The notes under the pieces were generated by a model. It did no database searches, was not told the DNA's origin, and saw only the letters and a list, made by a program, of their open reading frames with translations. The position numbers were made by a program, and so were the translations under genes. DNA of 42,884 nt from a virus: positions 1-42,884 of the IMG/VR virus record IMGVR_UViG_3300032229_000042; one strand, written 5' to 3'. Below are positions 5,801 to 27,133 of the stretch, in pieces; positions within the stretch are counted from its first letter, which is position 1; each line of letters starts with the position of its first letter.

Positions 5801-8800
5801 ACTCTCCATTCTCATCAATTCTGATTGTATCTCTAATGTTATCAGCTAACTCTCTTCTTGCCATCTCATACTCAAGAGCTTGAGACACACTTACAGGATC
5901 AACTAAATTATATCCATCACCAAGATCTTCAAGACCTAATTTGTTTAATAATTGGTTATATCCTTCTAAGAATAAGTTCTTTAATGCATTAGTGTTACGA
6001 GTATATGCTTTACCAGCAGCTTCACTCTTTGGAACACCGTTTTCAAATAAATCCAAACTAGATGTCTTAGTCATTTGAGAACCAAGAGTTTGTCCTTTAG
6101 CTCCTGTATCACTATTCTCCACTTGAATACCATAAGTCTTCCAAGCTACAGGAATGATATTGTCAAATGGTGCTGTATTAACAGATCCATCTTCAGTATA
6201 TAAATTATATAACTTCTCAGCACCCACCTTTCTACCAGACTCAAATACAGCATAATCAATTCCTTCTTTCCACATTTTAATGTAAAGATCTCCTAAGTTA
6301 GTTCCTTCAATAGCTTTATAGTATAAAGGCATTTGAGAAAACTTATCTAACACTAAGTCAAACTGATTTCTACCATATTTATTACCAGATACAATAGGCT
6401 TTAATTCTTCTGTAACATATTCAGGTTCAGGAGTTTTAAGTAATGCAACATCCTGCTTTTGAAGAGCTTTATTTGTATAAGTATACAATCCTTTATTAGC
6501 AAATGCATCTCTTGTGTAAGCCATTTGCCATTGATGCCAAACTTCAGCAGGACTGTTTAAATCCCATTGACCATTTCTAAGTTTAACATCTCTATATGCA
6601 CCATCCATTATCCAAGAACCAGCATCTGCTTCATTTATCTTACCTCTAACTGTTACATCTCTAAGAGTTACAGTGTTTAAATAAGGTCTAAATTGGTGAT
6701 ATCCTGGATCAGTAGAATTGATAGTTATTCCATTAGCTTTATTGTATTCTACATTATGGAATGAGTTAAACTCAGGGCTATCAAACGTTGTTGCTCTACC
6801 AGATAAGAAAGATTTGATACGCTTAGTCTCATCTAATATACCATCCTTAATCTTAAATTGGTACGGATCACCAAATAAAATCTTGTGCATTTCTATGTTA
6901 TTAATAACATAGTTTATTCTAGCAAATGTTAAAATATCGTTAACATCATCTTGTGTTAATGCATTCTTATTTAATGTTTCAGCTACAGTAAACTTGCCAT
7001 CTAAGTCTTCATATTTGAATGTACCATTAGAATTTCTAACAATTTTATTGTTGTACATTAATATTTTCTTAGTATCAGCTATGTTACTTTCAATAAATGC
7101 TTTCACATCAGCAGCTATGTTAGCAGAATTCTCTTTAACAAACTCATCTATTTCTTCTTGTGTAGCACCATTGATAACCAAGTTGTTAGCATTAGATAAT
7201 GTATTTGTTACAACTGTTTTACCTTCAGCATTCTTATAACTGTTTCTTAAAATATCTTTAAAGAAACGTAACTCTTTAGCTCTAGGAGCTGTATTTAATA
7301 AATAGCTTCTATCACTTTGAGCCAATGCTATATCATCCTTTAAATATCCTTTAAATATAGTAGCCACTTTATCCCAAGCTAATCCACCACTCACCTCAGC
7401 AAACTTAATAATATTACCCAAGTTAATCATCCATTCTGTAGATGAATCTGCTGGGATTATTATATAGTATTTACCATTAAGATTCTGGTTGATTTCTTGA
7501 GTAAATCTCTTACCAAGAGTTAATCCTGTAGTGCTTGTATCTACATTATTATTTTGGTCTTTTGTACCATCAATGTAAGATATTACTAATAATTTAATTC
7601 TCTTACCTGCAGCATTGTAAAACAATCCTCCCTTCTTAAGGAATTGAGAATGTGTAGAGAATACATCATTTAATTCTGTTCTGGTTTGTTTCAACTCTTC
7701 AACTGTATCAGCCTCATTAACCTCATTTGCAAACAATGAAGCAGCGTTGTTTTGATCATAAGCTTGTCTCTTCTCACCTTCAACATTAGGGAATGTACTA
7801 TCTTGAATAGGGTTTTCCACCTTAACATATAATTCAGCTAATGTGTCTAATGGACCATTGATACCCAATGTCTCACCAGTCACTGTAGCTATCTCTTTTG
7901 TCTTTCCAAAATATTTATGAATAGAACCTACAGCTTCAACAAACTCATCTCTTTGCTCAGGTTTCAACTTTAAATAAGTATCTAATGTATATGTTATACC
8001 AATCTTGTTTAAGAAGTCCACCATCTTTTGTGGTGTACTAATATCTACACCTTCTGTAGACATCACTTTATATCTTCCTTGTTCTTTATTTAATCTAACA
8101 AGAGAATCAGGATTTCCAGATAAATCTTTAAGATTGTTTACCCACTCTTCTTTAGTTTGTTTAGTTACAGTGAATTGATTAGCAGGAGCTGTATATACAT
8201 CTTCACCACTAATATATTGTACTAATGCTTGAGGGTTTTGTTTTGTAAATGTCTGATAGAATTGTACAAACAATCTCCAATCATGTGGTTCAAACTTGCT
8301 AAAGTCTATCTCCATAGTAGATCTATTACCCTTAAGACGATTGAACAATCTAACATAGTTAGAGTCATACTTAGCTAAGTCTGTTAACTTGTCTACCATC
8401 TTGCTCACTTTAGTAGTGTTAGCTAACTTATCTATCACTGTAGCAAATGCTCTACTAAAATTTAAAAGTTTCTTGAAACCTTTTGTAGCACCATCAGTAA
8501 GAGCTGATTTAGGTAAAGATAATGTAGAACTATTAACTTGGTTTGTAGAAACTGTTTCTACTAATGTACCTACTAGTAATTTAACAGGATATGGAGAATT
8601 CTTCTTCCACTCTGTAGTAAATGCTTCAGCAGCATACATTCTATTGGTTACATTTTCTCCATTGATATCCAATAAGTTATTCTCATCAAACTCAATTTTA
8701 AATGTACGTAAGAACTCTTTTGTCTTAGTTACAAGATCAGCCCAAGTCTTATCTCCAACCACCTTATCTTCTTCTGCATATTGAGCTTTAATAGAATTAA

Positions 8801-11800
8801 ATATCTCAGGAGAACTTAAGTTAGAAATTTCATATAGTGATCTATTTGTACCAAATACCTTTTCAAAGAATCTAGCAGTCATGTCTTGTACAACCTCATT
8901 AGTTTGTTGTTGAGTTAAGCCTTCAGCTGCTTTATATTCAGGAGCTGCAGATTTAACAGCTTCAGACAATTTAGCATCCTTATATTTACCTGTATCAATA
9001 GCTTTAAACAACTCTTCTTTTCTAGAAGGCTTGTTTACAAACGATTTAACAAAGTCAATAATATCTCTAAAGAACTTTAATATTCTTTCACCAATGTTTC
9101 TAGCTGGTAGCTTACCAAGTCTAAAGTCAGCAAAGTCATCAGCTATTCTTTCCTTAGCTTGTTGATTTGTAGCCTCTTCATAGAATAACATCTTACCAGA
9201 CTCTCTATCTTTAAACTTACCAGGCTTAGCTTTAAACTCATCAAGGATAGCTTGTTGCTCTTCTTGAGATAAGAAGCCTTTCCATATACCCTCAAATATC
9301 TCATGATATTCTGTACCTCTCTGACCACCTTTGTAGAACTTAGCTACACCATTCTCAAACACACCCCAAGCCTTTTGACCATCATAGGTAGTAATGATAC
9401 GATTTAATATCTCAAAAGGAATATTAGGAACATTCTTAGCATGCCATTCTTTGAACAATTCAATCTCAGCATCTGTCATTCCTTCAGTCTTCTCTTGACC
9501 TAACATTCTATATTCAGAATCTTTAGGAGCTTTAGAGTTGCTTAAGTCTGTTTTAGTTTCACCACCTTCTAAAGCAGCTAGTTCTGATCTAACTTCCATT
9601 AGTAATTTAGAAAATCTACCATTATCTTGTTCTACTCCTGCTTTATTTTTATGAGTAAGTTCAGTATTGCCAGTAGCTAATAAAGCTTTAAGAGCTTCAG
9701 GATTTTGTTCAAAAGAAGCTTTTATTAACTCTTTCATAATTCCAGGAGATTCTTTATCCCAAATATTTTTCTCAAAAGTTACACCAATATCTTTACGACC
9801 TAAAGCTTTTGCTTCTGAAGCAGATTTTGCTCTAAGTATAGTTTCTGAATGGTTGTTTACTTTAGCTTTAAAATATTGAGAAGTTTTATCATCCTTACCA
9901 CTAACATCATAATACTCTCTTTTTGCGTATTGAAATGCTTGCTCTACTGAATTAAACTTTTGCCCATTAAAAGTAAAAGGCCTATTAGCAAAGTTACTTA
10001 ACTCAGTATTATCTCCTGTACCTGCATAAATATTAATTTTACCAGATTCTGTTGTAACAGGTTGATTTTCAGCTGGTTGTGATGTTGTACCACCTTCTAA
10101 AGCAGCTAGTTCTGCATTATATTTAGCATTGATTTTATCTCTTACTCCTAATTTTTCTTCTACTTCTTTTAAATAATCTTCTGCTTCTTGTTTAGTAGCA
10201 AAGCCTCCTTGTGATAAAACTTCATTGTATAACATTCCTCCATTATCTCCAACAGCTTTATTAAACTTAGCTACATTAACTTTCCACAAAGGTGTTTTAG
10301 CTCCACTAGGTGTATCAGGATCTACATTTACACTAGCTTCATGAATATCTGATTTATGTAATAAATCTAATGTTTCTAATTCTTCTTGTCTTCTCTTTTC
10401 TATATCAGCTTTCTTATCTACAGATTCTGTGGAAGTGGTAACAGTACCAACCACCTTACCACTAGCAAGATCTGTTTGTGTAACTGTAGCAGCTGTAGAT
10501 ACAGGAGCAGCTTGTGCTTCTTTCTGAATCTCAGCAGCAATTCTAAGCTTAAGATAGTCTTTAACTATACCAAGGTCATCTTTACTAGCATCAAAACTAT
10601 CATTAGCTTTTAATGCCTCAACGATTGTACCAACCTTAGCACTATCACTAGCTATATCTGTAACTGTTTGATTATCATTGATTTTAACAAATGTATTACC
10701 ATTTGCATCTTGTGTAGCTGTGAACAATACAGGACCGCTAGATAGGTCAAATATATTCTCTGTAGTACCATCTAACTTATATCCACCAATAACATCAGTT
10801 GCTTCTTGTGTTTGAGCAACAGGTTTAACTACTACCTCAGGAAGTTCCATTCCTTCTAGGATAGCATATCTTTGTTTGAAGTTGTAAGGAACAGCATCTG
10901 TAATCTTTGCTACGTTTGTAGACAAAGGAGTTTCACTAATAGATCTAGAAGACCCATCAGGAAACTTATCTGCCAATAAATATGTTTGATAATTATCCCA
11001 CTCACTGATAACTAAATTGCCATCAGGACCAATATGTGGTTCTAAGAATTTATCGTGGAATTTTTTAGTAAGTGTATCTCTATTGATGTTTTGATACACT
11101 GTTTTTAATTGATCAACTATTTGATCTTCTGCTTCAGCAATCTTAGTTAGGTCATACTTTTCTTTACCTAACTCAAGATTCATCGTGTTAGTGTTAATAA
11201 AGATTTGATTAGCACCACTAGCTCCCTTACTCTTCCAATACAATACATTCTGCAAATATGTAGAATATAACCTATTGATTTTGATTGGTTTACCAGCAGC
11301 TAATTGATTATTAACTTCTTCAGAGATTTTCTTTAAAACTTCAAATACACCTTTAGCTTCTTTAGCTGTAAAGGTTCTACCTCTTACACCTTGTAGTGTA
11401 TCGTTATATTGAATGTAAGGATGTCCAATTTGAACTTTAACTTGCTTTCCTTTATGGAATATAAATCCGCTGCTAGATACTTGAATCAATCCTTCTTGTG
11501 TAGATATTACAGCTTTAGGGATTAATGCATCACTAATATTGTTTCTTTCATTTTGAACAGTAACAGGAATACCATTAGACACTGTGAAATTGTACACCTT
11601 ATATCCAGGTGCAGCAAATAACTCAGCTCTCTTAACTCTCCATCCAGCAGCTTTAGCTTCAGCTAATGCTTTTTGCTCAGCTCTATATCTAGGAGATTTA
11701 TCAGCATATCTTAAACTTGTAGTACGCATAGCGTTAAATACTACCTTGCTCATATCCATCTTCTCACCCACTTTAGCAACACGCTTACCTTCTTTATCTA

Positions 11801-14800
11801 CAAAGTAAACATTATCACCATCTTGTTCTACATATACAGCAGCTACAAATCCAAGATCTACATTTGTAAGATTCTCAATCTCAGCTTTAGGTTTACTAAA
11901 TTGTATTTCACTTAATCCTGTTAATCCAAGAGCGTCTTCTTGGTTAGGAGTAACTAGAATAGCTTTGATTCTAGCTTTGTTAGCAAATCCACCAACATTA
12001 TTTAAGAACTCAATAGCACGTGCCTGATGAGGTTTAGGTACAAAGTTATCTCCTTCATATTCAGATATAGTAGTTTCAAATAGTATATTGGCATCTATTA
12101 ATTTACCTTCATCTAAATTTACAACAACAGATGAATCAACTGTAGCAACATCACCAGAGTTAAGTTCAATCTCAGCTTGTTCTTTGTTTATATCATCAGA
12201 AAACTTCTGTAACTTCTCTTGTTCAGTTTGAACCTTTTCATATCCAGTTAACTTATCAGTACTAATATTTTGAATATCTCCATTGATATCTTCCACCTTA
12301 ATAGTACCATCAGGATTTACAGCAAGTATCTTAACTCTACGGAAATCTGATAAGTCATCATTAATATCAGTAGCTGCGTTATTTGCAGCTGTTTCTGTTT
12401 TATAGAATGCAACTTCCCCACTAGGAGCAGTCACTTGATATCTGTCCTCATCAATTTTATCTACTTTAGCCTTATCAAGACTAATGTTTACATATTCTCT
12501 TCCTTGTTGTACATCTTCTCTTTGACCCCCCTTATTAACAAAACTATAAAGTCGTTCAGCCTTTGGTTGTTCTACACCCTTTTCTTCTTTTTCTTGCTTC
12601 TTCTCATCAGCTTTTTCATCTTCTTCAACTTGATCAGCAAGATCATTAGCTACTTCATCAGCTTGATCAAAGTACTTTTGGAAACCTTCTTTGGTATTTA
12701 ATTCATCAAAAGCGTTAGATGCATCTCTTCTTCTTCTGTTTAAATTATTAATATCAACACCATATTGTATTAACTTATCAGCACTACCAACAGGAACTAA
12801 ATCATCTTTAGTTGCATCCTGACCATTTAATTCAAAGTTCAACAATGCCTCAAATATCTTATCGTTCTTATTATCTACTAATAAAGAATTAATTCTTTCA
12901 GAGTTTGTACGTAAGGCTTTAACTTGATCTTTAATTAATCTTCTATCAGCAGGAGTAGTGTACTCAGTAATTGTTTTGTTTAAGTTACTAGCTTTTTGCT
13001 CATAAAAATCACGTAGTTCTTCTAATCTTTTATCACTAGTAAGTTGACTAAGTGTATTATTACTAATTAAAGGATTAATTTCATTTACAGAATTTTGAAT
13101 TGCATTCAGTCTATTAGCTACATTTTTAGTTGTAACAGCATAATAAGTTAGATCGTTTTTATAATTTTCAAACTTATTGTAGTTATCTGCCTCAAATATT
13201 GAATTTAACTCCTCTTCACTAGGATTGCTTATATCTTTAACTTTAGGGTTATTCTTAAACGGATTAACTAAGTTGTTGCTAATCATATCCGCTGTAGACT
13301 TAATCTCATTTGCTTTAGCAATTAAGTTATTTACATATTCACCTACAGTTGTTTTATTTGTAGAGTTCCAATCTAATTGGAATAATCTTTCAAAATCTTC
13401 TTTCTTAAGATCTTTAAGCATTTTCAATTGCTCAATTGTTACATCATGCATTCCACCAGGAATACGTGATTGTACAAAGTTGAAGAATTGATCATCTTGT
13501 AAGTTCTTAAATTTAAATACATCACCAGACCTATTTGCTTCTTCCATTTCTTTAGCAATAGCAGCTGATGTTAATGTACTGTCGTACATTTGTTTCAATG
13601 TATTAGTAAGTCCTACATTGTTAACAATATTAATAGCATTAGCTAATCTAGCATTTGCACCTTTTCCTTTATAATTATCATACAAACGTTGACCACTACC
13701 TACAACTAATCCTGTAAGAGCACCAATCAACATATTCTCAATACCCTCTTGACTACCAAACTGTTGGTTCATACCATACACAGTAGACTTGATAACCTCA
13801 TTTAACTCATCTCTACCTTCTTTATAGTTACGATTTTTATACTTTCTTGTATAGTAATCATATGTTCCTTTTTCTGCAGCAAACTGTCCACCTTCTTCAA
13901 ATACACCTTCTGAAAACATTGTAGAAACAGTTGGTCTAATATTATCCCAAACTCTTCCAGCAAATGTACTTGCAACTTTCTTTTCAAATACATCAAGACT
14001 ACCTTCTTGTAATCCTATTCTACCTGCTCCTTCTATACCTTGTTGTAAACCACCAGCAACAGGACCAGCACCTCCAGCAATCATTGATTTATAAAGGTTA
14101 CCAAACATCAATGTATTAGATGCTGTCAAGAGAGCCATGTTTATACCAAATCTAGTATTCATACCAGCTCTAGCATAATTCTCTATTTCTTGCATTGCTT
14201 TAGCATCTGGCTCTTCGTTAAAGTTTTCAAACTTATATTGATTGATCAACTCATCTTTAATCTTTCTATAGCCCTCTCTAGCCTCAACAGCTGCTTCTGT
14301 TAAAGAAGAACCGTATATAGCCATACCATATCTAAACCCATTACTCACTCTAGCTGCTGCAGCTAATTGAGCTGCTTTATTCATATTAAGAATAAACTTC
14401 TCACTCTTATTTAAGTCTGTTGCTAAATTTTCAAGTCTAGTTAATTGTGAAAGGTTTTTTGCACCAAGCACTCTACCCACTGCACTTTCAGCACTAAATA
14501 GCTTATTTAAATATAAACTAGCTTTACCAACTTGAGCAGCCACTAATGGAATTTCTCCAATACCTTCTGTCACAAGACCTATAGCAACATCTTGTGCAGC
14601 AGCACCAAGAACACTACCTGCCATGAAACCTAAGTTAGGTATAAATTTTTCACCCCAGAAGTAAGAACTTCCTTTAGTGAAAGGAATAGCAGACATGTAT
14701 GGATGAGCTTTAGCATATGCACTTTGATAAGTAGGCATCCACTTATCTAAGTTATTCATCCAACCATCAATAACTCCTTCATATCCATCAGGATCTCCTG

Positions 14801-15248
14801 ATAGTTTACTTATATCACGATTCTTAATTGCAGAAATTGTATTAGGAATGTTTGTTAAGCTTTGAGCAAATGTACCAGCAGTTTTACCAACACCTTTAAT
14901 TACACCTCTTGCAAGGTTACCATACCAAGATTGTGTTTGTGCATTAATGTCTTCTAGGTCACCAAGATCTCTACCATATACAGGATAGCGTTGGTTAGCA
15001 AGAAGTTCACTTTGTGGAATATATCCAAAAGTTTGACCAAATCCCCCAGGACCAGGCATTTGACCCAATTGTTCTAATTCTGCAATACTATAACCTCTGC
15101 GGCTTACAGGAATATTCATAGGACCACCACCCTCACGTATGTCTAGAGGTAATGTTTCAGGAGATCCTATAGGCACAACAGGACTCCCTAAATTAGGATC
15201 CATTGATAAACGTTCATCATTCATTAGTTCGTCTGTTAAACTCGCCAT
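2877..15248 (-). CDS. Giant multidomain virion RNA polymerase protein of crAss-like phage, with NADAR domain
   Basis: 4123 residues. The polymerase signature is GSDFDIDKLNMYLKN, with D3307, D3309 and D3311 in place of the usual DxDGD of multisubunit RNA polymerases. About 45 residues upstream, FRIPNQ occupies the place of the RxPT element of beta-prime. DFDID is the catalytic loop of the virion RNA polymerase gp66 of Cellulophaga phage phi14:2. Other parts in order: small-residue hydrophobic segments at about 205-240 and again within 360-520, suited to membrane passage; an acidic/Lys linker near 880; a NADAR domain at 1738-1890; a peptidase-like patch TEYHEIFEG with H1982 and E1983; then polymerase sequence to the end. 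At roughly twice the length of phi14:2 gp66 it looks like a fusion. It starts one nucleotide after the stop of the 886-residue gene. Expected to be packaged and injected to transcribe early phage genes; this is inferred from the family. Confidence 0.85.
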   Translation of the reverse strand: MASLTDELMNDERLSMDPNLGSPVVPIGSPETLPLDIREGGGPMNIPVSRRGYSIAELEQLGQMPGPGGFGQTFGYIPQSELLANQRYPVYGRDLGDLEDINAQTQSWYGNLARGVIKGVGKTAGTFAQSLTNIPNTISAIKNRDISKLSGDPDGYEGVIDGWMNNLDKWMPTYQSAYAKAHPYMSAIPFTKGSSYFWGEKFIPNLGFMAGSVLGAAAQDVAIGLVTEGIGEIPLVAAQVGKASLYLNKLFSAESAVGRVLGAKNLSQLTRLENLATDLNKSEKFILNMNKAAQLAAAARVSNGFRYGMAIYGSSLTEAAVEAREGYRKIKDELINQYKFENFNEEPDAKAMQEIENYARAGMNTRFGINMALLTASNTLMFGNLYKSMIAGGAGPVAGGLQQGIEGAGRIGLQEGSLDVFEKKVASTFAGRVWDNIRPTVSTMFSEGVFEEGGQFAAEKGTYDYYTRKYKNRNYKEGRDELNEVIKSTVYGMNQQFGSQEGIENMLIGALTGLVVGSGQRLYDNYKGKGANARLANAINIVNNVGLTNTLKQMYDSTLTSAAIAKEMEEANRSGDVFKFKNLQDDQFFNFVQSRIPGGMHDVTIEQLKMLKDLKKEDFERLFQLDWNSTNKTTVGEYVNNLIAKANEIKSTADMISNNLVNPFKNNPKVKDISNPSEEELNSIFEADNYNKFENYKNDLTYYAVTTKNVANRLNAIQNSVNEINPLISNNTLSQLTSDKRLEELRDFYEQKASNLNKTITEYTTPADRRLIKDQVKALRTNSERINSLLVDNKNDKIFEALLNFELNGQDATKDDLVPVGSADKLIQYGVDINNLNRRRRDASNAFDELNTKEGFQKYFDQADEVANDLADQVEEDEKADEKKQEKEEKGVEQPKAERLYSFVNKGGQREDVQQGREYVNISLDKAKVDKIDEDRYQVTAPSGEVAFYKTETAANNAATDINDDLSDFRRVKILAVNPDGTIKVEDINGDIQNISTDKLTGYEKVQTEQEKLQKFSDDINKEQAEIELNSGDVATVDSSVVVNLDEGKLIDANILFETTISEYEGDNFVPKPHQARAIEFLNNVGGFANKARIKAILVTPNQEDALGLTGLSEIQFSKPKAEIENLTNVDLGFVAAVYVEQDGDNVYFVDKEGKRVAKVGEKMDMSKVVFNAMRTTSLRYADKSPRYRAEQKALAEAKAAGWRVKRAELFAAPGYKVYNFTVSNGIPVTVQNERNNISDALIPKAVISTQEGLIQVSSSGFIFHKGKQVKVQIGHPYIQYNDTLQGVRGRTFTAKEAKGVFEVLKKISEEVNNQLAAGKPIKINRLYSTYLQNVLYWKSKGASGANQIFINTNTMNLELGKEKYDLTKIAEAEDQIVDQLKTVYQNINRDTLTKKFHDKFLEPHIGPDGNLVISEWDNYQTYLLADKFPDGSSRSISETPLSTNVAKITDAVPYNFKQRYAILEGMELPEVVVKPVAQTQEATDVIGGYKLDGTTENIFDLSSGPVLFTATQDANGNTFVKINDNQTVTDIASDSAKVGTIVEALKANDSFDASKDDLGIVKDYLKLRIAAEIQKEAQAAPVSTAATVTQTDLASGKVVGTVTTSTESVDKKADIEKRRQEELETLDLLHKSDIHEASVNVDPDTPSGAKTPLWKVNVAKFNKAVGDNGGMLYNEVLSQGGFATKQEAEDYLKEVEEKLGVRDKINAKYNAELAALEGGTTSQPAENQPVTTESGKINIYAGTGDNTELSNFANRPFTFNGQKFNSVEQAFQYAKREYYDVSGKDDKTSQYFKAKVNNHSETILRAKSASEAKALGRKDIGVTFEKNIWDKESPGIMKELIKASFEQNPEALKALLATGNTELTHKNKAGVEQDNGRFSKLLMEVRSELAALEGGETKTDLSNSKAPKDSEYRMLGQEKTEGMTDAEIELFKEWHAKNVPNIPFEILNRIITTYDGQKAWGVFENGVAKFYKGGQRGTEYHEIFEGIWKGFLSQEEQQAILDEFKAKPGKFKDRESGKMLFYEEATNQQAKERIADDFADFRLGKLPARNIGERILKFFRDIIDFVKSFVNKPSRKEELFKAIDTGKYKDAKLSEAVKSAAPEYKAAEGLTQQQTNEVVQDMTARFFEKVFGTNRSLYEISNLSSPEIFNSIKAQYAEEDKVVGDKTWADLVTKTKEFLRTFKIEFDENNLLDINGENVTNRMYAAEAFTTEWKKNSPYPVKLLVGTLVETVSTNQVNSSTLSLPKSALTDGATKGFKKLLNFSRAFATVIDKLANTTKVSKMVDKLTDLAKYDSNYVRLFNRLKGNRSTMEIDFSKFEPHDWRLFVQFYQTFTKQNPQALVQYISGEDVYTAPANQFTVTKQTKEEWVNNLKDLSGNPDSLVRLNKEQGRYKVMSTEGVDISTPQKMVDFLNKIGITYTLDTYLKLKPEQRDEFVEAVGSIHKYFGKTKEIATVTGETLGINGPLDTLAELYVKVENPIQDSTFPNVEGEKRQAYDQNNAASLFANEVNEADTVEELKQTRTELNDVFSTHSQFLKKGGLFYNAAGKRIKLLVISYIDGTKDQNNNVDTSTTGLTLGKRFTQEINQNLNGKYYIIIPADSSTEWMINLGNIIKFAEVSGGLAWDKVATIFKGYLKDDIALAQSDRSYLLNTAPRAKELRFFKDILRNSYKNAEGKTVVTNTLSNANNLVINGATQEEIDEFVKENSANIAADVKAFIESNIADTKKILMYNNKIVRNSNGTFKYEDLDGKFTVAETLNKNALTQDDVNDILTFARINYVINNIEMHKILFGDPYQFKIKDGILDETKRIKSFLSGRATTFDSPEFNSFHNVEYNKANGITINSTDPGYHQFRPYLNTVTLRDVTVRGKINEADAGSWIMDGAYRDVKLRNGQWDLNSPAEVWHQWQMAYTRDAFANKGLYTYTNKALQKQDVALLKTPEPEYVTEELKPIVSGNKYGRNQFDLVLDKFSQMPLYYKAIEGTNLGDLYIKMWKEGIDYAVFESGRKVGAEKLYNLYTEDGSVNTAPFDNIIPVAWKTYGIQVENSDTGAKGQTLGSQMTKTSSLDLFENGVPKSEAAGKAYTRNTNALKNLFLEGYNQLLNKLGLEDLGDGYNLVDPVSVSQALEYEMARRELADNIRDTIRIDENGEFPIPFESSPAYLQIRSILYSMVDKAIGSPKVNGFPAVQVPVTMWEKSGEKRGVTEINGKKVFTDGTLKSYTKENPYMEILVPHWFKDQFKKAGFKSDEELLEYLNKPENQSILRGIGFRIPNQAASSSLTFKIKGFLPQSMGKTVVLPSEITEIAGSDFDIDKLNMYLKNTYITAKGQLKQVPFFGYGEQAKEAIKKFILKEDLESIFDINERTVAATEDDYGTLADKLYKQSIENEYYESLEEMLTLPENYDRLVTPISDAGLEDVANQLDKLRGVDETKIKNRLLDGNFMTSLRHAFVIAKRWVGIGAVNITNHSLAQKGEVYLDPVKIAALNDYERKILGNGQIVLPHNKVTINGREVVSLSGVMDKAGKYISDNLSGFITAFVDVAKNPYILKILGSNNVVSTAMFLTRIGTPVKTTALFLNQPIIKEYLNYLDSIDSKSVYSKKNLDVVRKKFPVDRKLVAATKIEMKNLIPNIENYYAGKAINNAEQQRILAEFLKYHKMGQNLFKLTQATNYDTTKFNSAESMSKKRMRTETAEESNIFTSAGDILDKSFIGEKATLLEKSINSLGEILKFDQLQYSVITGKVLAPYMANEYLAADKFDTIATKVKASFIDYIFQTKTDLNSRMKEMLTDPYTAVVTELAKARKENPDMGILQQLTQAASDRVGGAKSIKLKANIKDAYDENLYTDMMRELRDNPATNALYNRIVDLAILQGTYQSAISIKNIIPIEDYSSRVVNAVNSAASDLNLDNFSKFGAFERNNWKDENIFKKLTNVVPSLYNEGFNDRGELIVDVQFEQFPTLEGLSEAGVKNILVLDRFDNFKDVASDYILIPRVVNNGTQKIDIIDNKPVTRADYGKRKAEGDTSLNDVMGFQKVKYEDGTELAIGSKVYYKAINLWGDGQYATEMYNDTRKSVFNNGTVKIENEIPSQNIINYFNQVKEEVVPLQDQAKEIKPEGLPPIKDNNQNNCG
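9561..9586. repeat. 26-bp direct repeat, left copy, flanking the NADAR domain
   Basis: This copy (accaccttct ... gttctg on the plus strand) is identical over 26 bases to 10089-10114. On the coding strand it encodes ELAALEGG at residues 1889-1896, just after the NADAR domain. The two copies start 528 bp apart, exactly 176 codons. Confidence 0.9.
9579..10037 (-). other. NADAR (YbiA-like, DUF1768) domain inside the polymerase giant
   Basis: Residues 1738-1890 of the giant protein match the NADAR pattern: ELSNFANRPFTFNGQKFNSV followed by EQAFQYAK with the conserved E1769, then ALGRKD at 1816-1820, W1830 in NIWDK, and a C-terminal LLATGNTELTH ... NGRFSKLLMEVR block. NADAR proteins are N-glycosidases acting on ADP-ribose-containing or riboflavin-pathway intermediates, and some members remove ADP-ribose from guanine in DNA, reversing DarT2-type modification. 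The domain looks complete, with the key Glu kept. Its edges coincide with a perfect 26-bp direct repeat, so it may be a mobile domain cassette. A counter-defence role is inference. Confidence 0.85.
10089..10114. repeat. 26-bp direct repeat, right copy, flanking the NADAR domain
   Basis: Identical over 26 bases to 9561-9586. It encodes ELAALEGG at residues 1713-1720, shortly before the NADAR domain. Recombination between the copies would delete the domain and keep the frame. Confidence 0.9.
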
Positions 15249-15249
15249 A

Positions 15250-17910
15250 CTATTTCCAGGTTTTTATTGCTTCATTATAGGTATCGTCAGATATTGCAGT
15301 TAGTACATTTACCACACCACCTTCTTGAATATATCTATTACCAATTCTTTTACCTTTCCAAACGTTTTTACTTGGGTCAAAAGCATACATGATAACACTA
15401 TATCCATCAGTTTTTAATTGTCCATCATTGTCGTTATCTCCTTCAACATCAACTCTAACAAATTGAGCATTTTTTGAATTCTTTAAACCAGGTAGATCAA
15501 ACCCTGTTATTCTTGCTGTTACAGCATGACTATTATCCACTTGAGGAGATCTTGCACTTATTGTATTTGTAGTGAAATTAGGAGAAGTTGAAATTATATC
15601 TTTATATCTACTAAATGAACTAGTTTCTAATATTTGAGGAAATAAAGGTCTTGAGTCTGGTCCCATAGAAATAGCAACGTGATCTTTTCCAGTAGGATTA
15701 ATAACAACCATTTGTGTAGTACCGTCTTTAGATTTCTCTAATCCAAATCTTGTTTTAGCACCATCTGCACCTGTCATCCATCCTAAAGCTGTCTGTGCTT
15801 TATTTCCACCAGAAGTTAATTCATTTTTAGCTGCAATAGTAAGAAACTTAGTAATAGCATCATTAGTAGCTGCATCTGCTGGATTGAGACCTTCAAACTG
15901 AACAAGAGACTTTGGATTATGTTTAGCTAAATAATTGCTTGTAAATTCCGCTATCTTTGGAGCTATACTAGCTGTAACTTTTCTAGCTTCATCAATAGCA
16001 CTTACCAATTTCTTTTGTTCAGGAGTTTGAGAAAACTTAAATTTTCCAAGATTAGCTTCTAACAATGGTAAATATTTACCTCCTTTATAATTTTTAAAAT
16101 GAGCAATTGCAGCATCTGTGCGATATCCATAACCTGCACCAGGACCTACAATGTTTGTTTTAAACTTGTCCATCTCAATGGTTGCATCTGCAATATCAAA
16201 ACCTGAATAGTTACCTACTCCTTTTACTTTAGTTGCTAGTTCTTTATTTTTAAATTCCTCAGTTTTTTGTTGAGCTGTAGTTACTAAATTAGCTTGTGTA
16301 GTATATTCATCAACTGCTATTCTATGTTGCTCTAGATATTTTATTTCATCAGGGCTGTAATTTTTTCTAGGATTTATTTCATACTCTTTTATCAATTTAG
16401 CAAATGCTGCTTGTCTTTGTTTAGCGTTCAATTTAGGAAATAATCTATCTGCAAAAGTATTATCTAATGCTGTGATTGCATTTGCTTTATCTACAAGAAC
16501 TTTTGTTTGACTTTCTAAAGTTGGAGGATCTCCACCTGTAGGAAGTTGACCAGGTACTACTACCGTTCCAGGTTTTTTATTTTTTTCTTCTTCTTTTTTA
16601 TAATTTATCCAAAATGATTCTTGGTCCCAAGCAAGTCTTTGTTTAGCAAGATCAATATTAGCCCAACCTCTAGCACTAGCATCAGCAAATTCTCTATTAG
16701 CAAGATTGAATTTTTGTCTCTCCATAAACATTTGAGCGTATGGATTAGATGAAATTTCTTGTTTATAGCTTTTGTAAGCTAAGTCATTAGCCATGTTCAT
16801 CAAATGTTTTTGAGTGTACATGTCTGCTTTATATTTCTCTAATGTTGCAGGATCTTTAAGTGCTTCTAATGTAGCATTTAAATCTTTATCTAGCTGTCCA
16901 GATTTCTCTTGTTCTTGAAGATCTGCCAATCTAGCTTTAAGTGCACCTTGTTGTACAGCAGTTAAATTTGAATTTGTTAAAGCTACAGATAAGTTTACTA
17001 TCTCTTGAGATAGGAAATCTTTTTTATTATTATAGATATTAATAACATCTTTGGTAAATGCTTCAGGTTTAATACCTTTATATTTATACCGAGCATCAAT
17101 TCTTAATTGTTGAGCATCTCTACTATCTAAGCTATCCAAGAAGTTATTATATAATTTTTCAGCAGATGTACCTTTTGTTGACATCTTAAGCATAGCATCA
17201 TCTACTTGTCTCTCTCCTTTAGAAGGATCTGTAGAAACAGTTTGACGAGTTACAGGCTTTCCATCTTTACCTTTTATTACATTACCCTTAGGATCTTTAA
17301 CCACCTCTGTTCCAAAGTATAATGTATTACCTTTATCATCTCTTTTCCAAGGATTATCTGCAACATATTCATCAGGATGCTCCATTATAAGTTTAGCTTT
17401 ATCTAAAAGCTTTTTATCCACATCCCAATATTCTATATATTTACCAGAAAAAGGAGAGGTAAGACTCTTGTCATTTAACCATGTAGTTTTTTGTTCATTC
17501 CAATAATCATCATTACTAGGACTAGATTTACCTTCTTTAGCAGCCAGCTCTCTATCAGCATCTCCTTTTCTAACTACCTGGGTAGAATAAATAGCAGTTT
17601 GAACAATAGGATCTTTAACTATTTGATTAGCCATACCCCCTACAGAGTTAACTAATTGTTGATTAGAAAAGTCTCCAGCAGCCACAGTTCTCAATTTTCC
17701 ACCTAATTCATTAAGTTTAGATTGTAAGTATTGCTTGTGTTCATTCTTGTAAACATCCATCCCAGCTATATTATCCATATAGCTTTGAATCTTTTGCACA
17801 CCTTGGTCATACTGTTGTTGCTTGTACATGCCCACTTGGACCATAGCATCAACAGGTAACTGCTGTACGTAAGGATTAAATTGTGATATCTGATCGGTAA
17901 ATGAAGCCAT
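15250..17910 (-). CDS. crAss-like internal (cargo-type) virion protein, 886 aa
   Basis: The N-terminus (FNPYVQQLPVDAMVQVGMYK, then QQYDQGVQKIQSYMDNIAGM and YLQSKLNELGG) follows a pattern I associate with a conserved crAss-like protein encoded just ahead of the polymerase giant and thought to be carried inside the capsid. No signal peptide or membrane segment is evident. The middle is strongly helical and charged, ending near residues 430-450 in a Lys/Glu-rich stretch and a Pro/Gly linker. The gene stops with TAG one nucleotide before the start of the polymerase giant, and a candidate promoter sits in the 86 nt upstream. Co-packaging with the polymerase is inferred from synteny. No enzymatic motif was seen. 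Confidence 0.65.
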   Translation of the reverse strand: MASFTDQISQFNPYVQQLPVDAMVQVGMYKQQQYDQGVQKIQSYMDNIAGMDVYKNEHKQYLQSKLNELGGKLRTVAAGDFSNQQLVNSVGGMANQIVKDPIVQTAIYSTQVVRKGDADRELAAKEGKSSPSNDDYWNEQKTTWLNDKSLTSPFSGKYIEYWDVDKKLLDKAKLIMEHPDEYVADNPWKRDDKGNTLYFGTEVVKDPKGNVIKGKDGKPVTRQTVSTDPSKGERQVDDAMLKMSTKGTSAEKLYNNFLDSLDSRDAQQLRIDARYKYKGIKPEAFTKDVINIYNNKKDFLSQEIVNLSVALTNSNLTAVQQGALKARLADLQEQEKSGQLDKDLNATLEALKDPATLEKYKADMYTQKHLMNMANDLAYKSYKQEISSNPYAQMFMERQKFNLANREFADASARGWANIDLAKQRLAWDQESFWINYKKEEEKNKKPGTVVVPGQLPTGGDPPTLESQTKVLVDKANAITALDNTFADRLFPKLNAKQRQAAFAKLIKEYEINPRKNYSPDEIKYLEQHRIAVDEYTTQANLVTTAQQKTEEFKNKELATKVKGVGNYSGFDIADATIEMDKFKTNIVGPGAGYGYRTDAAIAHFKNYKGGKYLPLLEANLGKFKFSQTPEQKKLVSAIDEARKVTASIAPKIAEFTSNYLAKHNPKSLVQFEGLNPADAATNDAITKFLTIAAKNELTSGGNKAQTALGWMTGADGAKTRFGLEKSKDGTTQMVVINPTGKDHVAISMGPDSRPLFPQILETSSFSRYKDIISTSPNFTTNTISARSPQVDNSHAVTARITGFDLPGLKNSKNAQFVRVDVEGDNDNDGQLKTDGYSVIMYAFDPSKNVWKGKRIGNRYIQEGGVVNVLTAISDDTYNEAIKTWK

Positions 17911-17924
17911 AATATAAGAATTAG

Positions 17925-17956
17925 CAAATGTAAATTAAAATATTAGAAATACCAAG
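17925..17956 (-). promoter_or_regulatory. Candidate Bacteroidota-type promoter upstream of the 886-aa gene
   Basis: Read on the minus strand, TACATTTG (17932-17925) matches the Bacteroidota -7 consensus TAnnTTTG. CTTG (17956-17953) lies 20 nt upstream and matches the -33 TTTG at three of four bases. The expected transcript start is only about 10 nt before the ATG at 17910. The gap also holds an imperfect inverted repeat (TACCAA at 17951 against TTGGTA at 17979-17984) that could end incoming transcripts. AT-rich DNA produces such matches by chance, so support is modest. Confidence 0.35.
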
Positions 17957-17996
17957 AACAATAATGAATTTTGTTAATTTGGTATAACTAGTTTGA

Positions 17997-20900
17997 TTAT
18001 AGGTTTTTAATAGCTTTAACAATATCTCCGTTTCTCTTTTTAGTAGACTTAGGTGCTTTAGTAGGTTGAATCACCTTGTATGCCATAATGTTTCCTTTAT
18101 TATCATATACAGGAACTGTTCCATCCTTAAGAAGGTTGTCTGTTAAATCAGGATCTGTTGGAGATACAGTAGGAGTATACCATTGATAAGGATTATTAAT
18201 GCTATAAGCTCTTCCTTGAGGATCATATCTATAGTTATACATATTCTCCATAACACCTAATGTTCTGTTTTCCAACTTGTTTTTAGCAATCTTGTCAGCA
18301 ATAGAATTAAGAGCAGCAGCTGCTTCAGCCTTAGTTTTAGACTGAGCTGTTTCTTGTCTAACGTATTGAGTATCAAGGATTCCTAAGTTTTGTAACTGAG
18401 CTTGGTTAAGAGCCTGTCTGTTAGCTTGGTAAACTGCAGCTCTATTCATTTGGTTCATTCTAAATTGCTCTCCTAAAACTTTATTCTTAAGATCAGCCAC
18501 CTGAGCCAATATGACAGATTGAGCAGAAGGATCTTCCCCACTAGCTAAAATGGCAGCTCTACCTTGAGCATCAATAGCATTTAATTGGTCTTGTAGAGAT
18601 ATGTCATATGGTTGATCTAATAGAGGCTGGTATGTTTGAGCCTGTACTGGTTGCAATTGGTTATTACCTAATGCATACATTTCACCCATTAATTGATCAG
18701 GATCAAGAGGCATTTGGTTTGTAGGTCTAAAGAAAGGATACATACTTAATGCTGTATCTGCAAGATTTTCCCAATCAGTACTTTCTTCACTCTTAGTAGG
18801 TGTTAATGCTTCTAAGTTAGCTATATTTTTATTTGCTTCAGCTATATCAATTTTTGCTGGAATAGCTGGAATTCTAGGACGTTCTGCTTTTGCAATATCT
18901 ATATAATTTGGAGAATAAGGAGTGTTTGTTCTTTGTTTTAGTGCACTAAAGTTAGGCAATCTTAAACCTGTAAAAGGAGCAGCTGGAGCATTTACAGCAT
19001 CTGAGAATGGAGGAACTCCACCTGTGATAGGAGCAGGATAATTAGGAAGAGAAGGAAAATCGTAAGGTATTTTTATTTTTGCCCCTAATTCAGGAACAGT
19101 ATATCCAGGAGTGTTTACAGCACTTAATAAAGGTATACCTTTTCCAGATTGAGCTTTCTTTATTTTCTTACCATCTCTACCAATAGCAGGGTCTTTGATA
19201 GCTCTTAACTTACCTTTAGCCAAACCATCACTCTCTACACCAAATTCCTCTGCTGTATCAAGAATAGCATTCTGTACCATAGCTGCTTTTTGTTTCTTAT
19301 CAGCTATATCCTTTAATTTAAGATTTGCTCCCATAATCATTGCTTTGCCAGCATTTAGAGATAGTTGGTCAAATGGATCATTAGGATTTGCATTGTTCAC
19401 TAACTCTGTAGCTTTTTCAATAGTTTTGTTTTGTTTAACTTCTTGCTTACTTAAGTCAGCAACATAGTGTTTAAACTTCTTACCCTTAGCTTTCTTATCA
19501 CCAATTTCTTTTACACCATAAGAAGGGATTATCATATTACCAGCAACATTTAAAACTTTCTCTCCTGTTGATGGATCTATTAATTCCATAGCTGGTTCAC
19601 CTCTTTCCACTTCAACATCAGCAGCTGGTTCATTAGCACCATTTTGAGCATGTTCTGCCATTCCACCACTACCGTATTTAACACCAATACCACTTCTTCC
19701 ATTACCATCTGTTTCATCATGAGACTGACCTCTAAACATTACAGTTTCTCCTGTACCTGGTAAATAAGGATTGTAAGACATTGGTTCAGCTTTACCACCC
19801 CATGTAGTTTGTAAATCACCACCCATAGCAAAACTTGGTCTTTCTGTAGACAAAGCTCTTGCACTAGGAGGAGTGTAATAATCATCTCCAACTGTACCAC
19901 CAGCTCTTAACATATCAGCATCATGTGGAGGTTTTAACAAATCTTTCATACTATGTTCACCAAACTTGGTAATCACTTGAGGTTGCCAGCTATTGCTCAC
20001 CCATGCATGTTCATCATCTACATATCCACCATCTTTCATAAATGCTGAATTCTGTGATTGTAAAGCTCTTGCTCCTTGTGCCCATGCAGCTCTTTCTGTA
20101 TTTTGTCTACCAATATCTTGATAGTGTTGTAATTCTCTAGCATCCTTTACACCACCTAATAAGTTACCAGCTACACCACCTAAGAATCCACCCACCTTAC
20201 TACCTAATGGTCCAAATATACTTCCAACAGCAGAACCTATACCTTTACCAATAGAAGCTTGACCAGAGCTTTGGAAGTATTCTCCAAACTCTGCTGTAGG
20301 AATATTACCACCACGAGCATATTGTTTAAGATTACTTTCATTCAAAGGCTCATACCCAAGACCAACGTATATATCTTCAGGAGCATATGTATTTTGAATC
20401 TCTGTAGGATTACCACTAATCATTGCACCATCTTCAGCAGATAAGTAATTTGTACCTGTTCCTTGAGGATCTCCTGCTTGTCCAGGTTGTACTAAACTAT
20501 CTTCAGGTCTAATGTATCTACGTTTTTGTACTTCAGGTTGAGATTCAGCAGCTTGAGCTGTTACACCACTAATTTGTGCAAATTGATTAGCTTTTGTAAT
20601 ATTAGCCTTTTGCTCATTAAGTTGTCCAACTCCTTGTAATATCTGAGGAGCAGCATTTAATAAACCAACACCTGCAGCTTTACCAATAGTTCCTAAATTA
20701 CCTGAATCACCAAGAGTTTTTAATCCAGCTTTAAATCCAATTCCTTTTCCAGTTTTTGGATTTTTAAATAAATTAGCACTAGCATCTAACATACCTTGAC
20801 CAGTTCCTTTCTTACTAAATGCATCCACTAGTCCAGTACCAACACCACCTTTTGGTTCAAATGCTTTTCCTAACATTTGTCCAACACCAAAAGCATCTAG

Positions 20901-21338
20901 ACCGCTTCGTCCTTTCTTTAACTTGCGTCCACCACTTTTTAATTCTTTAACAATTCCAGGAAGCTCTGCTAATATTCCAGGATCACTTCCACGTTGAGGA
21001 GCTGCTTGTGGATTAACTTTAGCTACAGCTTCTTGCCTTATTTGATCTTCTCTACTAATCCCAGAGTTAATAGCATTCATGTTAGCTAATATATCATTAA
21101 ACTGTATAGGACTAAAAGACTTATCTGGTTGCCCACCTACATATGCACCAACTTGTGCTATAGGAGGATTACCAAAATCAGTTAGTTGGTGCAACTGGTC
21201 ATTTACCATTTTAGCTCCCATAGCAGCTTTTTTAAATGCTTTACCATGAGCTTTCATAAACGCTTCTTCTGTAGGATATTTCTTATAGAATTCCTTTTCA
21301 GACTTTACTTTAGCGATCTTTAAGATTTGATCTTTCAT
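17997..21338 (-). CDS. crAss-like internal/ejection-type virion protein with Gly-rich hydrophobic segment, 1113 aa
   Basis: The N-terminus (MKDQILKIAKVKSEKEFYKK, then an Ala/Gly/Lys-rich helix) resembles the start of a conserved crAss-like protein, from memory. Residues about 361-397 form a Gly/Ala hydrophobic stretch (IGSAVGSIFGPLGSKVGGFL) that could insert in a membrane or line a channel. Around 535-630 lies a segment with SHDETDGNG, VEVERGEPAMELIDPSTGEK and SYGVKEIG, a pattern recurrent in phage internal proteins. The C-terminal third (about 890-1010) is Gln/Asn/Ala-rich and helical. Short AQxG elements (HAQNGANEP, KKAQSGKGIP) fall between domains, as in the 1633-aa neighbour. It starts 18 nt after that gene's stop. 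Function is unknown; participation in DNA or protein ejection is inferred. Confidence 0.6.
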   Translation of the reverse strand: MKDQILKIAKVKSEKEFYKKYPTEEAFMKAHGKAFKKAAMGAKMVNDQLHQLTDFGNPPIAQVGAYVGGQPDKSFSPIQFNDILANMNAINSGISREDQIRQEAVAKVNPQAAPQRGSDPGILAELPGIVKELKSGGRKLKKGRSGLDAFGVGQMLGKAFEPKGGVGTGLVDAFSKKGTGQGMLDASANLFKNPKTGKGIGFKAGLKTLGDSGNLGTIGKAAGVGLLNAAPQILQGVGQLNEQKANITKANQFAQISGVTAQAAESQPEVQKRRYIRPEDSLVQPGQAGDPQGTGTNYLSAEDGAMISGNPTEIQNTYAPEDIYVGLGYEPLNESNLKQYARGGNIPTAEFGEYFQSSGQASIGKGIGSAVGSIFGPLGSKVGGFLGGVAGNLLGGVKDARELQHYQDIGRQNTERAAWAQGARALQSQNSAFMKDGGYVDDEHAWVSNSWQPQVITKFGEHSMKDLLKPPHDADMLRAGGTVGDDYYTPPSARALSTERPSFAMGGDLQTTWGGKAEPMSYNPYLPGTGETVMFRGQSHDETDGNGRSGIGVKYGSGGMAEHAQNGANEPAADVEVERGEPAMELIDPSTGEKVLNVAGNMIIPSYGVKEIGDKKAKGKKFKHYVADLSKQEVKQNKTIEKATELVNNANPNDPFDQLSLNAGKAMIMGANLKLKDIADKKQKAAMVQNAILDTAEEFGVESDGLAKGKLRAIKDPAIGRDGKKIKKAQSGKGIPLLSAVNTPGYTVPELGAKIKIPYDFPSLPNYPAPITGGVPPFSDAVNAPAAPFTGLRLPNFSALKQRTNTPYSPNYIDIAKAERPRIPAIPAKIDIAEANKNIANLEALTPTKSEESTDWENLADTALSMYPFFRPTNQMPLDPDQLMGEMYALGNNQLQPVQAQTYQPLLDQPYDISLQDQLNAIDAQGRAAILASGEDPSAQSVILAQVADLKNKVLGEQFRMNQMNRAAVYQANRQALNQAQLQNLGILDTQYVRQETAQSKTKAEAAAALNSIADKIAKNKLENRTLGVMENMYNYRYDPQGRAYSINNPYQWYTPTVSPTDPDLTDNLLKDGTVPVYDNKGNIMAYKVIQPTKAPKSTKKRNGDIVKAIKNL

Positions 21339-21356
21339 ATTGAACTTTTGTATGAT

Positions 21357-24300
21357 TTATTTATATTTGTTTAACCAGCCACCGTTTTTCTTTTCTTCCT
21401 TAGAATCAATTATCTTTTTTAATGCTCCAACCCCTATAGCAGGAATAAGAGCTTTGTATATGTTTGGATTATTCATATCAAACATACCACTGTTACCTCT
21501 CAATGATTTAGCAAATTTACCAGGTTGTTGATTGTGAATTAACACATTACCGATAGATCCATCATCTACATTTTGAATCACAGCTCTATCTAATCCTGCT
21601 TTTTCTATATATTCAGCAATATTATCTGTATCAAAAACTCCTTTTGTAGGTCTGTTGTGTGGAATAATTCCTTCCTCTGTTAATTTTTTGTATACAGCAG
21701 GATCTGACAATAAAGAAAAGTCCTGTCCTGCAGCATTAAAATTTAATACATTTTTAGTTTTTGGAATAGCCAACTGATGCAATCCTGCTGTTTCTGTAGC
21801 AGCCACTCCTCCAGAAAGTTGTGGATAGTCTTTTAAAAACTGTTCTACAGTATAACCAGGTTTAAAATTTTTAGCTATATAATTTTCTAAATTTTGTTGA
21901 GCAGTTGGTTCAAATGGAGTAAAGTATTCAGCTTTTGGACCTTTTGGTGTATAAAATCTAGCAAGGTCTTCATTTGCTGTAAATATAGACTTACCAAAGA
22001 AAGGACTGTTTTCTGGTCTTAATGCTGGGTAATGTTCAGCATCTCCTCTATATGTAATATCAACTCCTTCAGGAAATGCTTTTTTAAAATTCTTACTTTG
22101 CATTTGTACAAACTGTTCAGGAGTTCCTAACTTACCATCTGGTAAAGTGAAAGGAGTACCATCAGCATTCTTCATCCATGTGCCTGATTGTTTAGCATTT
22201 TGTTCTATAGCAGCATACTCTCTCATCAACTCTTGATTCTTAGGAATTTCACTATTCCATGCTCCCCAATTTATTTCACTATTCAAATATGGTTCCATTC
22301 CTTTTGGTGGAGGAGGGGTGTATCCTGGATGTTGAATACTCCTCATATTTTTATTGTGTTTTATTATTTCTGCTTTTGTTAGTTTTTTACTACTACTTAT
22401 TATATTTCCATTTACATCATATTGTAAAGTTTGACCAGTAACTGGATTATATAAATATCTTGATCCAGACTCTTCTATTGGAGCTGCATTAATTATTTCA
22501 CCCATGTCATCGATAACAGGTGTTTCTTTAGAAATATTAGCAGCATTGTTTAATTTGTTAAGATATTTTGCTCCTTTCATAACTTCTGCTGCAAATGGTA
22601 ACACATCAAGAGTTGTTAACCCTGTGTTTAAAAGTGCAGTTCCTACACTTCCAAAACTAGGATCATTAACAGCAGTTTTCCAATCTTCTGCTACACCAGG
22701 AACGTGTTTAAGTCCTTGATATGCAAATCCAGCATTAAGAATATTAGCACCTGTAAGTCCTGGTACACCTGCAATAGGAGTAGCTAAAGCAGCAGCAGTA
22801 GATCCTAAACCTAAAGCACTACTTATAGCTGGAGCAGCTGTTATTCCACCAGCAATAGCATAAGGTTTCCAATCAGCAAAAGCACTATTACGTAAACTTT
22901 TAATACGTCTATTATTATACCAGCTATCCTCTTCATCTTTTCTAGCTTGTTCTGCTGCTGTCATTGCTTCTATTTCCCCAGGTTTAGGGTTCCATTGAGA
23001 TAGAGTTTCTCTATTGTTCTGTTCATACTGAGCAGGATTAAACTTTCCCCACATTGATGGTTTACTAGAAGTAACAGTAACTGTAGGTAATGTCATTCCT
23101 TCTGGAATATTTTCACCATCTTGAGCTTTAGGAGTGTACTTATCTAGCCATCCACCATTCTTCATCATTGGGAACTCTGTAACCTTCTTACCCTTAAACT
23201 TATAGTTTTCACCAGGTTGCATAAGCTTTGTATCACCTGTATCAGATATACCAAGTACAGGATAATCTACACCTTCCATAGTGATATCATTAGAGTTAAT
23301 CTCTGTTATCTCACCTGGGTGTGCCCATTGTCCCATATCATCCTTTATCACAGAACCATTCTTACTTATATTCTTAGGAGTGAAGTCTAATCCTTGTTGA
23401 TAGAATCTCATCTCCTTACCATTTTGAGCTTGAGTTAGAGGAGCTGCATTGTTAAGTTGAGCCACCTCATTGTTCATCTTGATAATGTCCTCATCTTTAA
23501 ACTTGAGCTTCATTCTTTGGAATACAGGCTCATTTGAAATCTTTGGATTCTTTAAAGCTTTCTGAAACATCTCAGGAGTTAACTCTTGTCCAAACTCTGT
23601 AGTTATACCATTATCAAGTAGAAGCTGTCTCATTCCAGTTAAATCTCCATAAGTCTCACCAGCTGCAGTTCTTGCTGAAGCTTTGCTTCCTTGTGGTGCA
23701 TAATGTTCTTCTTGAATAGCTTTTTGATAAATCTCATTTGGAGCAGTAACTCTACCACTTAAAGGTCTATTTATTTTCTCTAATTCACTTTCAGTAAATT
23801 TTTCAAATGGTTGAAATAAACCACCTATAGCAATAGCAGCTTTAGAAAGCAAGTTTTTCTTTCCATAACTAGCATTAGTGATTGGAATTATTCCATGTGC
23901 AACTTCGTGAGCTATTGATGGATTATCAACAAAATCATTAGCACCAAGATTAACACGATTCTGAAGAAGATTATAATATGTACCTTGATCTCCAGTTTTA
24001 GGGTTAAGTTTAACACTTAACAAGTTATCAAGTCTTTGTTTTTGTACATCTTTAGCAACTTCTTGATCAGGTATACTTTTAGAAAGTCTCTCCATATACA
24101 AAGGAGAGTTCATGTATCTTGCCATATTTTGCTTTATGCCTTCAAAGTTCTTTGGATCAAAGTTAACAAAGTTACTTTCTTTAACATAACCAAATGCTGG
24201 ATCACTAGTATCAAAATTTAATAACACACTATTATCTACAACTTGTTTACCATCCTGAGCACTAGCTTTAGTCTTCTTAGCATATTTACCATTACTAGGA

Positions 24301-27121: not shown

Positions 27122-27133
27122 TTATTTTATATT

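Follow-up and report, generated by a model that had tools for sequence, protein, structure and literature searches.

The window analysed here, namely the whole of the IMG/VR virus record IMGVR_UViG_3300032229_000042 (42,884 nt or 42.9 kb, positions 1 - 42,884), encodes a giant protein of 4123 amino acids (aa) that, by sequence, is a crass virion RNA polymerase (vRNAP). A NADAR domain with an invariant active site is fused into this polymerase, at a seam where cassettes are present in some phages, missing in others, and transferred between them. Crass-like phages dominate many gut viromes, and the roles of their giant injected proteins beyond transcription are largely unknown. The interpretation favoured as a whole, with a probability of roughly 0.6, is that interchangeable enzyme modules are fitted by the phage into proteins entering the cell with its DNA, that the gp30.3-type NADAR in the vRNAP would protect early transcription, and that an ART-like domain in a second large protein (1633 aa) would be a separate module. 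The giant protein and its main features are the following:

2877-15248 (-), 4123-aa giant protein, by sequence a crass vRNAP, with a gp47-like half, a seam with cassettes, and the RNAP core
13086-14159 (-), residues 364-721, similar to the phicrAss001 'RNA-polymerase subunit', a virion cargo protein (tblastn 5e-7)
9591-10046 (-), NADAR domain, about residues 1735-1886 (profiles, the AlphaFold model AF2, and Foldseek)
9942-9944 (-), E1769, catalytic Glu by alignment with YbiA of E. coli and gp30.3 of T4
9921-9923 (-), K1776, essential Lys position
9651-9653 (-), H1866, last-strand His marking phage (gp30.3-type) NADARs, aligned with T4 gp30.3
4428-7091 (-), RNAP core similar to phi14:2 gp66 (6vr4), residues 2720-3607
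5316-5330 (-), DFDID catalytic motif, residues 3307-3311

The original prediction, made from the letters of this DNA, had claimed that the 4123-aa protein holds a NADAR domain and that it lies three genes downstream of the 1633-aa protein. These open reading frames (ORFs; 2877-15248 and 21357-26258, both on the minus strand) were found as claimed, with two genes (1113 and 886 aa) between them, and the domain (residues 1735-1889) was borne out by Pfam, PHROGs, AlphaFold, Foldseek, and its invariant active site. Indeed, residues 1746-1868 matched PF08719 with an E-value of 4e-13 (50.4 bits, the curated cut-off being 35.1), the region matched phrog_1017 with an E-value of 7e-20, and Pfam, PHROGs, and NCBIfam all placed the domain near residues 1741-1889. 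The structure prediction that had been proposed as a check, an AlphaFold model built on 57 relatives, displayed the YbiA fold (pLDDT 96.2, pTM 0.90), and its only significant Foldseek matches in the PDB were YbiA (2b3w; 6e-8) and NADAR with ADP-ribose (ADPr; 8bau; 1e-6), followed by 8bat. E1769, K1776, and H1866 were invariant in the 57-sequence alignment, in which identity to the window went down to 37%; the active site around E1769, on which the original prediction depended, is retained. As a His on the last strand is the signature of phage NADARs (PMC11125620), the domain is, on sequence grounds, of the gp30.3 type. The phage-type motif has this His and not the Asp that is the third catalytic residue of the DarT1-associated antitoxins (PMC11543638, PMC11125620).

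The identification of the carrier as a crass vRNAP comes from homology to gp66 of phi14:2 (6vr4; E 1.7e-21, C-terminal half) together with the presence of a DxDxD motif (DFDID). The C-terminal half also matched the 'putative RNA polymerase' of phicrAss001, and the N-terminal half matched the phicrAss001 'RNA-polymerase subunit', which, from its position and size, is probably gp47. The NADAR domain is located at the seam between this gp47-like half and the RNAP core. A vRNAP core was present in 70 of the 83 NADAR-clade loci, mostly within the same ORF as NADAR. A fixed position of NADAR along the vRNAP was rejected, since it is found at the C-terminal end instead in several relatives whose chain is otherwise collinear with that of the window (L114, L124, L131, L139, and L148). 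Homologues of crass vRNAPs are packaged in virions and delivered with the DNA (PMC10172136, for the phicrAss001 cargo). Delivery of the 4123-aa protein, and with it of NADAR, together with the phage DNA is the best inference, because the NADAR protein is a crass vRNAP. As a separate observation made on L014, L015, and L017, under translation table 11 the NADAR segment of cr131_1 has an in-frame stop and the NADARs in long coding sequences of cr130_1 and cr272_1 break; all were read with TAG as Gln.

The surroundings of NADAR in the seam comprise the following elements:

9558-10403 (-), cassette array, residues 1616-1897, missing in the relative L374
10089-10415 (-), module 1 plus its linkers (KKADIEKRRQEELE ... 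KINAKYNAELAALEGG), 90.6% DNA identity to L124
10089-10115 (-), direct repeat copy 1, GCAGAACTAGCTGCTTTAGAAGGTGGT (AELAALEGG)
9561-9587 (-), direct repeat copy 2 (SELAALEGG), with one mismatch at the first base, on the other side of NADAR

NADAR is flanked by two linker copies that form direct repeats, identical over 26 bp. A clean empty site was retrieved in L374, in which residues 1616-1897 are missing, two residues stand between the flanks, and DNA identity to the window polymerase is 76-79% on either side. Similarly, the sister L178 contains a single exact linker copy (L178:6077) and a different module, without NADAR. Module 1, which lies upstream of NADAR, shares 90.6% DNA identity with L124 over 329 bp, compared with about 64-76% for the shared core. 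It is far more alike in DNA than this core, and the cassette, including its linkers, has therefore been transferred between phages. The seam is hypervariable, being often short or devoid of known domains, and it is empty in close relatives; a Pfam search of its modules for Macro, Nudix, or other ADPr partners returned NADAR in one of the 42 seams and otherwise weak or unrelated matches.

The linker itself, with the 21-nt core GCAGAACTAGCTGCTTTAGAA encoding AELAALE, shows conservation of its codons and is found again, in frame, in other crass giant proteins (including L258-L337), where it joins modules that are unrelated. Among 23 distinct AELAALE contexts, taken from loci selected by protein similarity, 16 carried the identical 21 nt, whereas 0.3% would be expected from codon usage. 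When the same residue was present, codon agreement with the window amounted to 91% in the linker versus 67% in the flank next to it (p 4e-10, an optimistic value, as the sequences are related). An exact scan revealed the 21-mer in 110 IMG/VR stretches, and in each of the 80 examined it lay in frame inside long, mostly giant ORFs, the neighbours to its left and right being unrelated. Such identity at the DNA level may either be kept by selection, the linker serving as a recombination site, or result from homogenisation through frequent exchange. With somewhat less than an even chance, the linker may be a recombination seam in the injected giant crass RNAPs, at which NADAR and many other modules are inserted, lost, and traded, the polymerase carrying a changing counter-defence set. 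In practice, its DNA offers a handle to locate exchangeable modules in crass giant proteins, so that these can be tested singly. The best named family among the linker-adjacent domains was that of the PD-(D/E)XK nucleases. By eye, an ART-like stretch (L280), an ASCH-like stretch (L241), and a NADAR-like stretch (L213) were seen near or at the seam of proteins of the vRNAP block.

A second exchangeable site was found in the 1633-aa protein, with the following layout:

21357-26258 (-), 1633-aa putative cargo protein with a swappable ART slot
22077-22280 (-), N-side adaptor of the ART slot (SEINWGAWN...GTPEQFVQMQSKNFKKAF)
21456-22076 (-), R-type ART-like domain, residues 1395-1601
21360-21509 (-), C-side adaptor and tail (KSLRGNSGMFDMNNPNIYK...GGWLNKYK)

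This protein had been predicted to end in an ART-PolyVal-like domain, of which the ART-like nature of residues 1395-1601 is likely, given the slot and the nearest folds of the model, whereas the PF18760 (ART-PolyVal) cut-off was not reached and the Glu position is occupied by Asn. No ART match to the protein was found in Pfam, NCBIfam, or PHROG, by phmmer against the PDB, or by tblastn against named phages, and a scan with the N-half of the slot alone gave no match. An adaptor-bounded alignment used as a query retrieved 78 loci. Two kinds of insert, the H-type and the R-type present in the window, occur between the shared adaptors, and the H-type inserts of L007 and L012 pass PF18760 (7e-14); to judge from these sequences, the slot exchanges H-type and R-type domains. 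Conservation of the ART adaptors at the DNA level was not seen, as 19 copies of one adaptor peptide displayed 13 spellings. The AlphaFold model of residues 1395-1601, likewise a check proposed beforehand, was of intermediate quality (pLDDT 78.5, pTM 0.75), its nearest folds being ARTs with modest scores. The six top-ranked PDB neighbours were all ART/RES folds (MbcT, AcrIF11, Xre-RES, and ParT), with a best E-value of 5e-3 and low TM-scores, diphtheria toxin and tankyrase appearing lower among unrelated matches; the top matches in BFVD included PolyVal ARTs, with E-values near 1e-5.

It is possible, albeit somewhat doubtful, that residues 1395-1601 represent an inactive or non-ART fold, such as an NAD-binding relic or an RES-type NADase. 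This would agree with the lack of a Pfam match, the marginal scores of the RES/MbcT and ART neighbours in the PDB, a weak match of the R-type to the H-type when profiles of the inserts alone were compared (P about 0.005), and the canonical catalytic Glu position, which is Asn in the window and variable in relatives, leaving the ART triad without its Glu, although D1566 is nearby. The invariance of R1404 and D1566, and of the R, G, F, and D positions among relatives, the BFVD matches, and a slot identical to that of a true ART-PolyVal argue for an ART-like domain instead; Y1436 is present as well. The catalytic competence of this putative ART is uncertain from its sequence. Apart from this, upstream of their ART-PolyVal the L007 and L012 proteins display another stretch of the YRG type (MMYRGLGKEG...), perhaps a second ART-like domain.

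As to function, the gp30.3-type NADAR, spliced into the vRNAP at the seam between repeated AELAALEGG linkers, would be injected with the polymerase and would then hydrolyse N-glycosidic ADP-ribose. Its substrate would most likely be guanine-ADPr on the phage DNA read by the polymerase, or else a small ADPr signal, and removal of the ADP-ribose would protect early transcription. A template-bound substrate is favoured by the fusion of NADAR to a polymerase whose template is the incoming genome. The R-type ART-like domain would be another swappable cargo module, probably directed at a host target, and not an obligate partner of NADAR. DarT2-type enzymes, which the original prediction had put forward as the source of the NADAR substrate, have to be replaced by DarT1, as a phage-type NADAR hydrolyses guanine-ADPr and fails on thymidine-ADPr, the product of DarT2 (PMC11125620). 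Several points weigh against this interpretation. NADAR is sporadic, occurring near the vRNAP in only five of the 80 nearest vRNAP relatives, and it is independent of the ART slot, being found in two of 32 long ART-slot contigs, which equals that background rate (Fisher p = 1). Most linker-adjacent modules lack a named function, so that 'counter-defence' may be too narrow a term, and virion packaging and injection are, for this phage, deduced from homology. Finally, T4-type NADAR is active in vitro, yet it does not rescue from DarT1 in vivo (PMC11125620).

The latter result would fit a rather unlikely alternative, in which NADAR would act not on DNA adducts but on small ADP-ribose signals, or on toxic intermediates arising in NAD-based host immunity, and destroy these, as has been proposed for most phage NADARs and argued for phage Macro and NADAR domains (Iyer and colleagues 2022, PMC9503650). 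However, the fusion to a DNA-reading polymerase points to a template-bound substrate, and no such signal has been shown to be a NADAR substrate in the literature examined.

The original prediction further held that the phage may deliver both a writer and an eraser of ADP-ribose. The components withstood scrutiny, NADAR being real, the ART-like domain likely, and delivery with the vRNAP the best inference, but a conserved pair in this arrangement was not supported. A strict linkage between NADAR and the ART slot was dropped in view of the two in 32 contigs mentioned above; a crass vRNAP core was seen in 23 of these 32. Co-occurrence profiling did reveal an enrichment of PF18760, present in nine of 41 NADAR-positive contigs versus one of 50 NADAR-negative vRNAP relatives (p = 0.004), which is suggestive only, as both sets were sampled differently and differ in breadth, and two of the 50 were later found to contain a stand-alone NADAR elsewhere. 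Selection for a coupled system, in which an injected ART would modify host machinery and an injected NADAR would clean the phage nucleic acid, is unlikely. Two further NADAR-positive contigs, G009 and G010, have a full R-type slot. Coupling could account for this enrichment, for the presence of both domains in the window and in G009, and for the distance of at most 3 kb between ART-PolyVal and NADAR within vRNAP genes in seven of eight non-redundant contigs with both. It could also account for their presence in one ORF according to Pfam in L136, L162, and L123 (ART being below the curated cut-off in the latter two), and it has a parallel in T4, with its injected Alt and nearby-encoded gp30.3. 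Against it stand the background rate of NADAR in ART-slot contigs, the 30 of 41 NADAR-positive contigs in which both PF18760 and the ART-slot model are missing, the cleavage by NADARs of base-linked ADPr and not of the known protein adducts of phage ARTs, and the uncertain catalysis of the ART. The giant polypeptide of L123 that combines NADAR with ART-PolyVal also has superfamily 1 helicase domains between the two. Crass-like phages without a NADAR in the vRNAP may encode it as a stand-alone protein instead, as seen at L370 and L371 (about 180 aa, on the contigs of L228 and L255).

Lastly, cassettes that are mainly passengers or structural spacers moved by linker recombination, with a NADAR of no selected role in infection, are highly improbable, for although the seam is hypervariable and empty in close relatives, as described above, the E, K, and H residues are invariant in the 57 sequences and the place that NADAR takes along the same chain differs between phages.

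Compared with the phi14:2 vRNAP (gp66) and the phicrAss001 RNAP cargo (gp47, gp49, and gp50), the protein in the window shares a homologous RNAP core with the DFDID motif, but it unites the gp47-like and core parts in one chain of 4123 aa, the seam of which holds a NADAR cassette, and no NADAR has been described for those proteins in the literature examined. The domain shares its fold and the conserved E, K, and last-strand His with the T4 gp30.3 subtype of the NADAR/YbiA superfamily, although gp30.3 is a stand-alone protein and the NADAR of the window is carried as a cassette by a presumably injected polymerase. Similarly, T4 combines an injected ART (Alt) with a NADAR encoded nearby, but as separate genes, and gp30.3 is not known to be injected. 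The DarT1-associated NADAR antitoxin of DarTG1 is alike in fold and in its E and K positions, whereas its third catalytic residue is Asp and its operon encodes a toxin partner, two features absent here. The polyvalent proteins that contain ART-PolyVal (Iyer, Aravind and colleagues) are likewise large cargo proteins of the virion whose ART domains can be exchanged, and ART, Macro, NADAR, and Nudix domains in virions have already been proposed (PMC9503650). However, a vRNAP fusion and a linker conserved at the DNA level are not described there, and viral NADARs outside RNA viruses are given as typically stand-alone, with stress on Myoviruses and without mention of crass phages (PMC9503650). In bacterial polymorphic toxins, too, effector domains are swapped through recombination with cassettes (PMC3482391), the carrier being, in contrast, a phage polymerase or cargo protein in this case, for which no immunity gene was found, no search aimed at one having been made. 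The idea of a virion-packaged ART and NADAR is hence already published (PMC9503650), while the fusion with the vRNAP and the mechanism based on cassettes appear to be new, as judged against the open-access literature and general knowledge. Built into the genome-reading polymerase, a de-ADP-ribosylase whose active site is intact would directly let the phage survive ADP-ribosylating defences before phage gene expression, and the NADAR cassette together with a separate, swappable ART-like domain suggests that crass phages exchange domains to re-equip the proteins that they inject.

The remaining late genes are also located on the minus strand, where structural genes near the muzzle position are followed by those for the 1633-, 1113-, 886-, and 4123-aa proteins:

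26258-32890 (-), genes for structural proteins of the virion (1918 and 287 aa) at the muzzle position
17997-21338 (-), 1113-aa protein between the muzzle and vRNAP genes, putative cargo from its position
15250-17910 (-), 886-aa protein immediately upstream of the vRNAP, putative cargo from its position

The 1633-, 1113-, 886-, and 4123-aa genes probably correspond, by position, to the cargo block of phicrAss001, of which gp45, gp46, gp47, gp49, and gp50 were detected in virions (PMC10172136). For the 1633-, 1113-, and 886-aa proteins, no sequence match proving cargo status was obtained. The 1633-aa protein further displays a WLxKY motif that recurs at its N-terminus, near residue 1035, and at its C-terminus, as well as an HExxH-like motif (AHEVAHGII; AHEMFH in the L012 protein) around residues 780-795, which may indicate a metallopeptidase. 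The 1918-aa structural protein (27134-32890, minus strand) contains poly-Thr linkers repeated in its C-terminal part.

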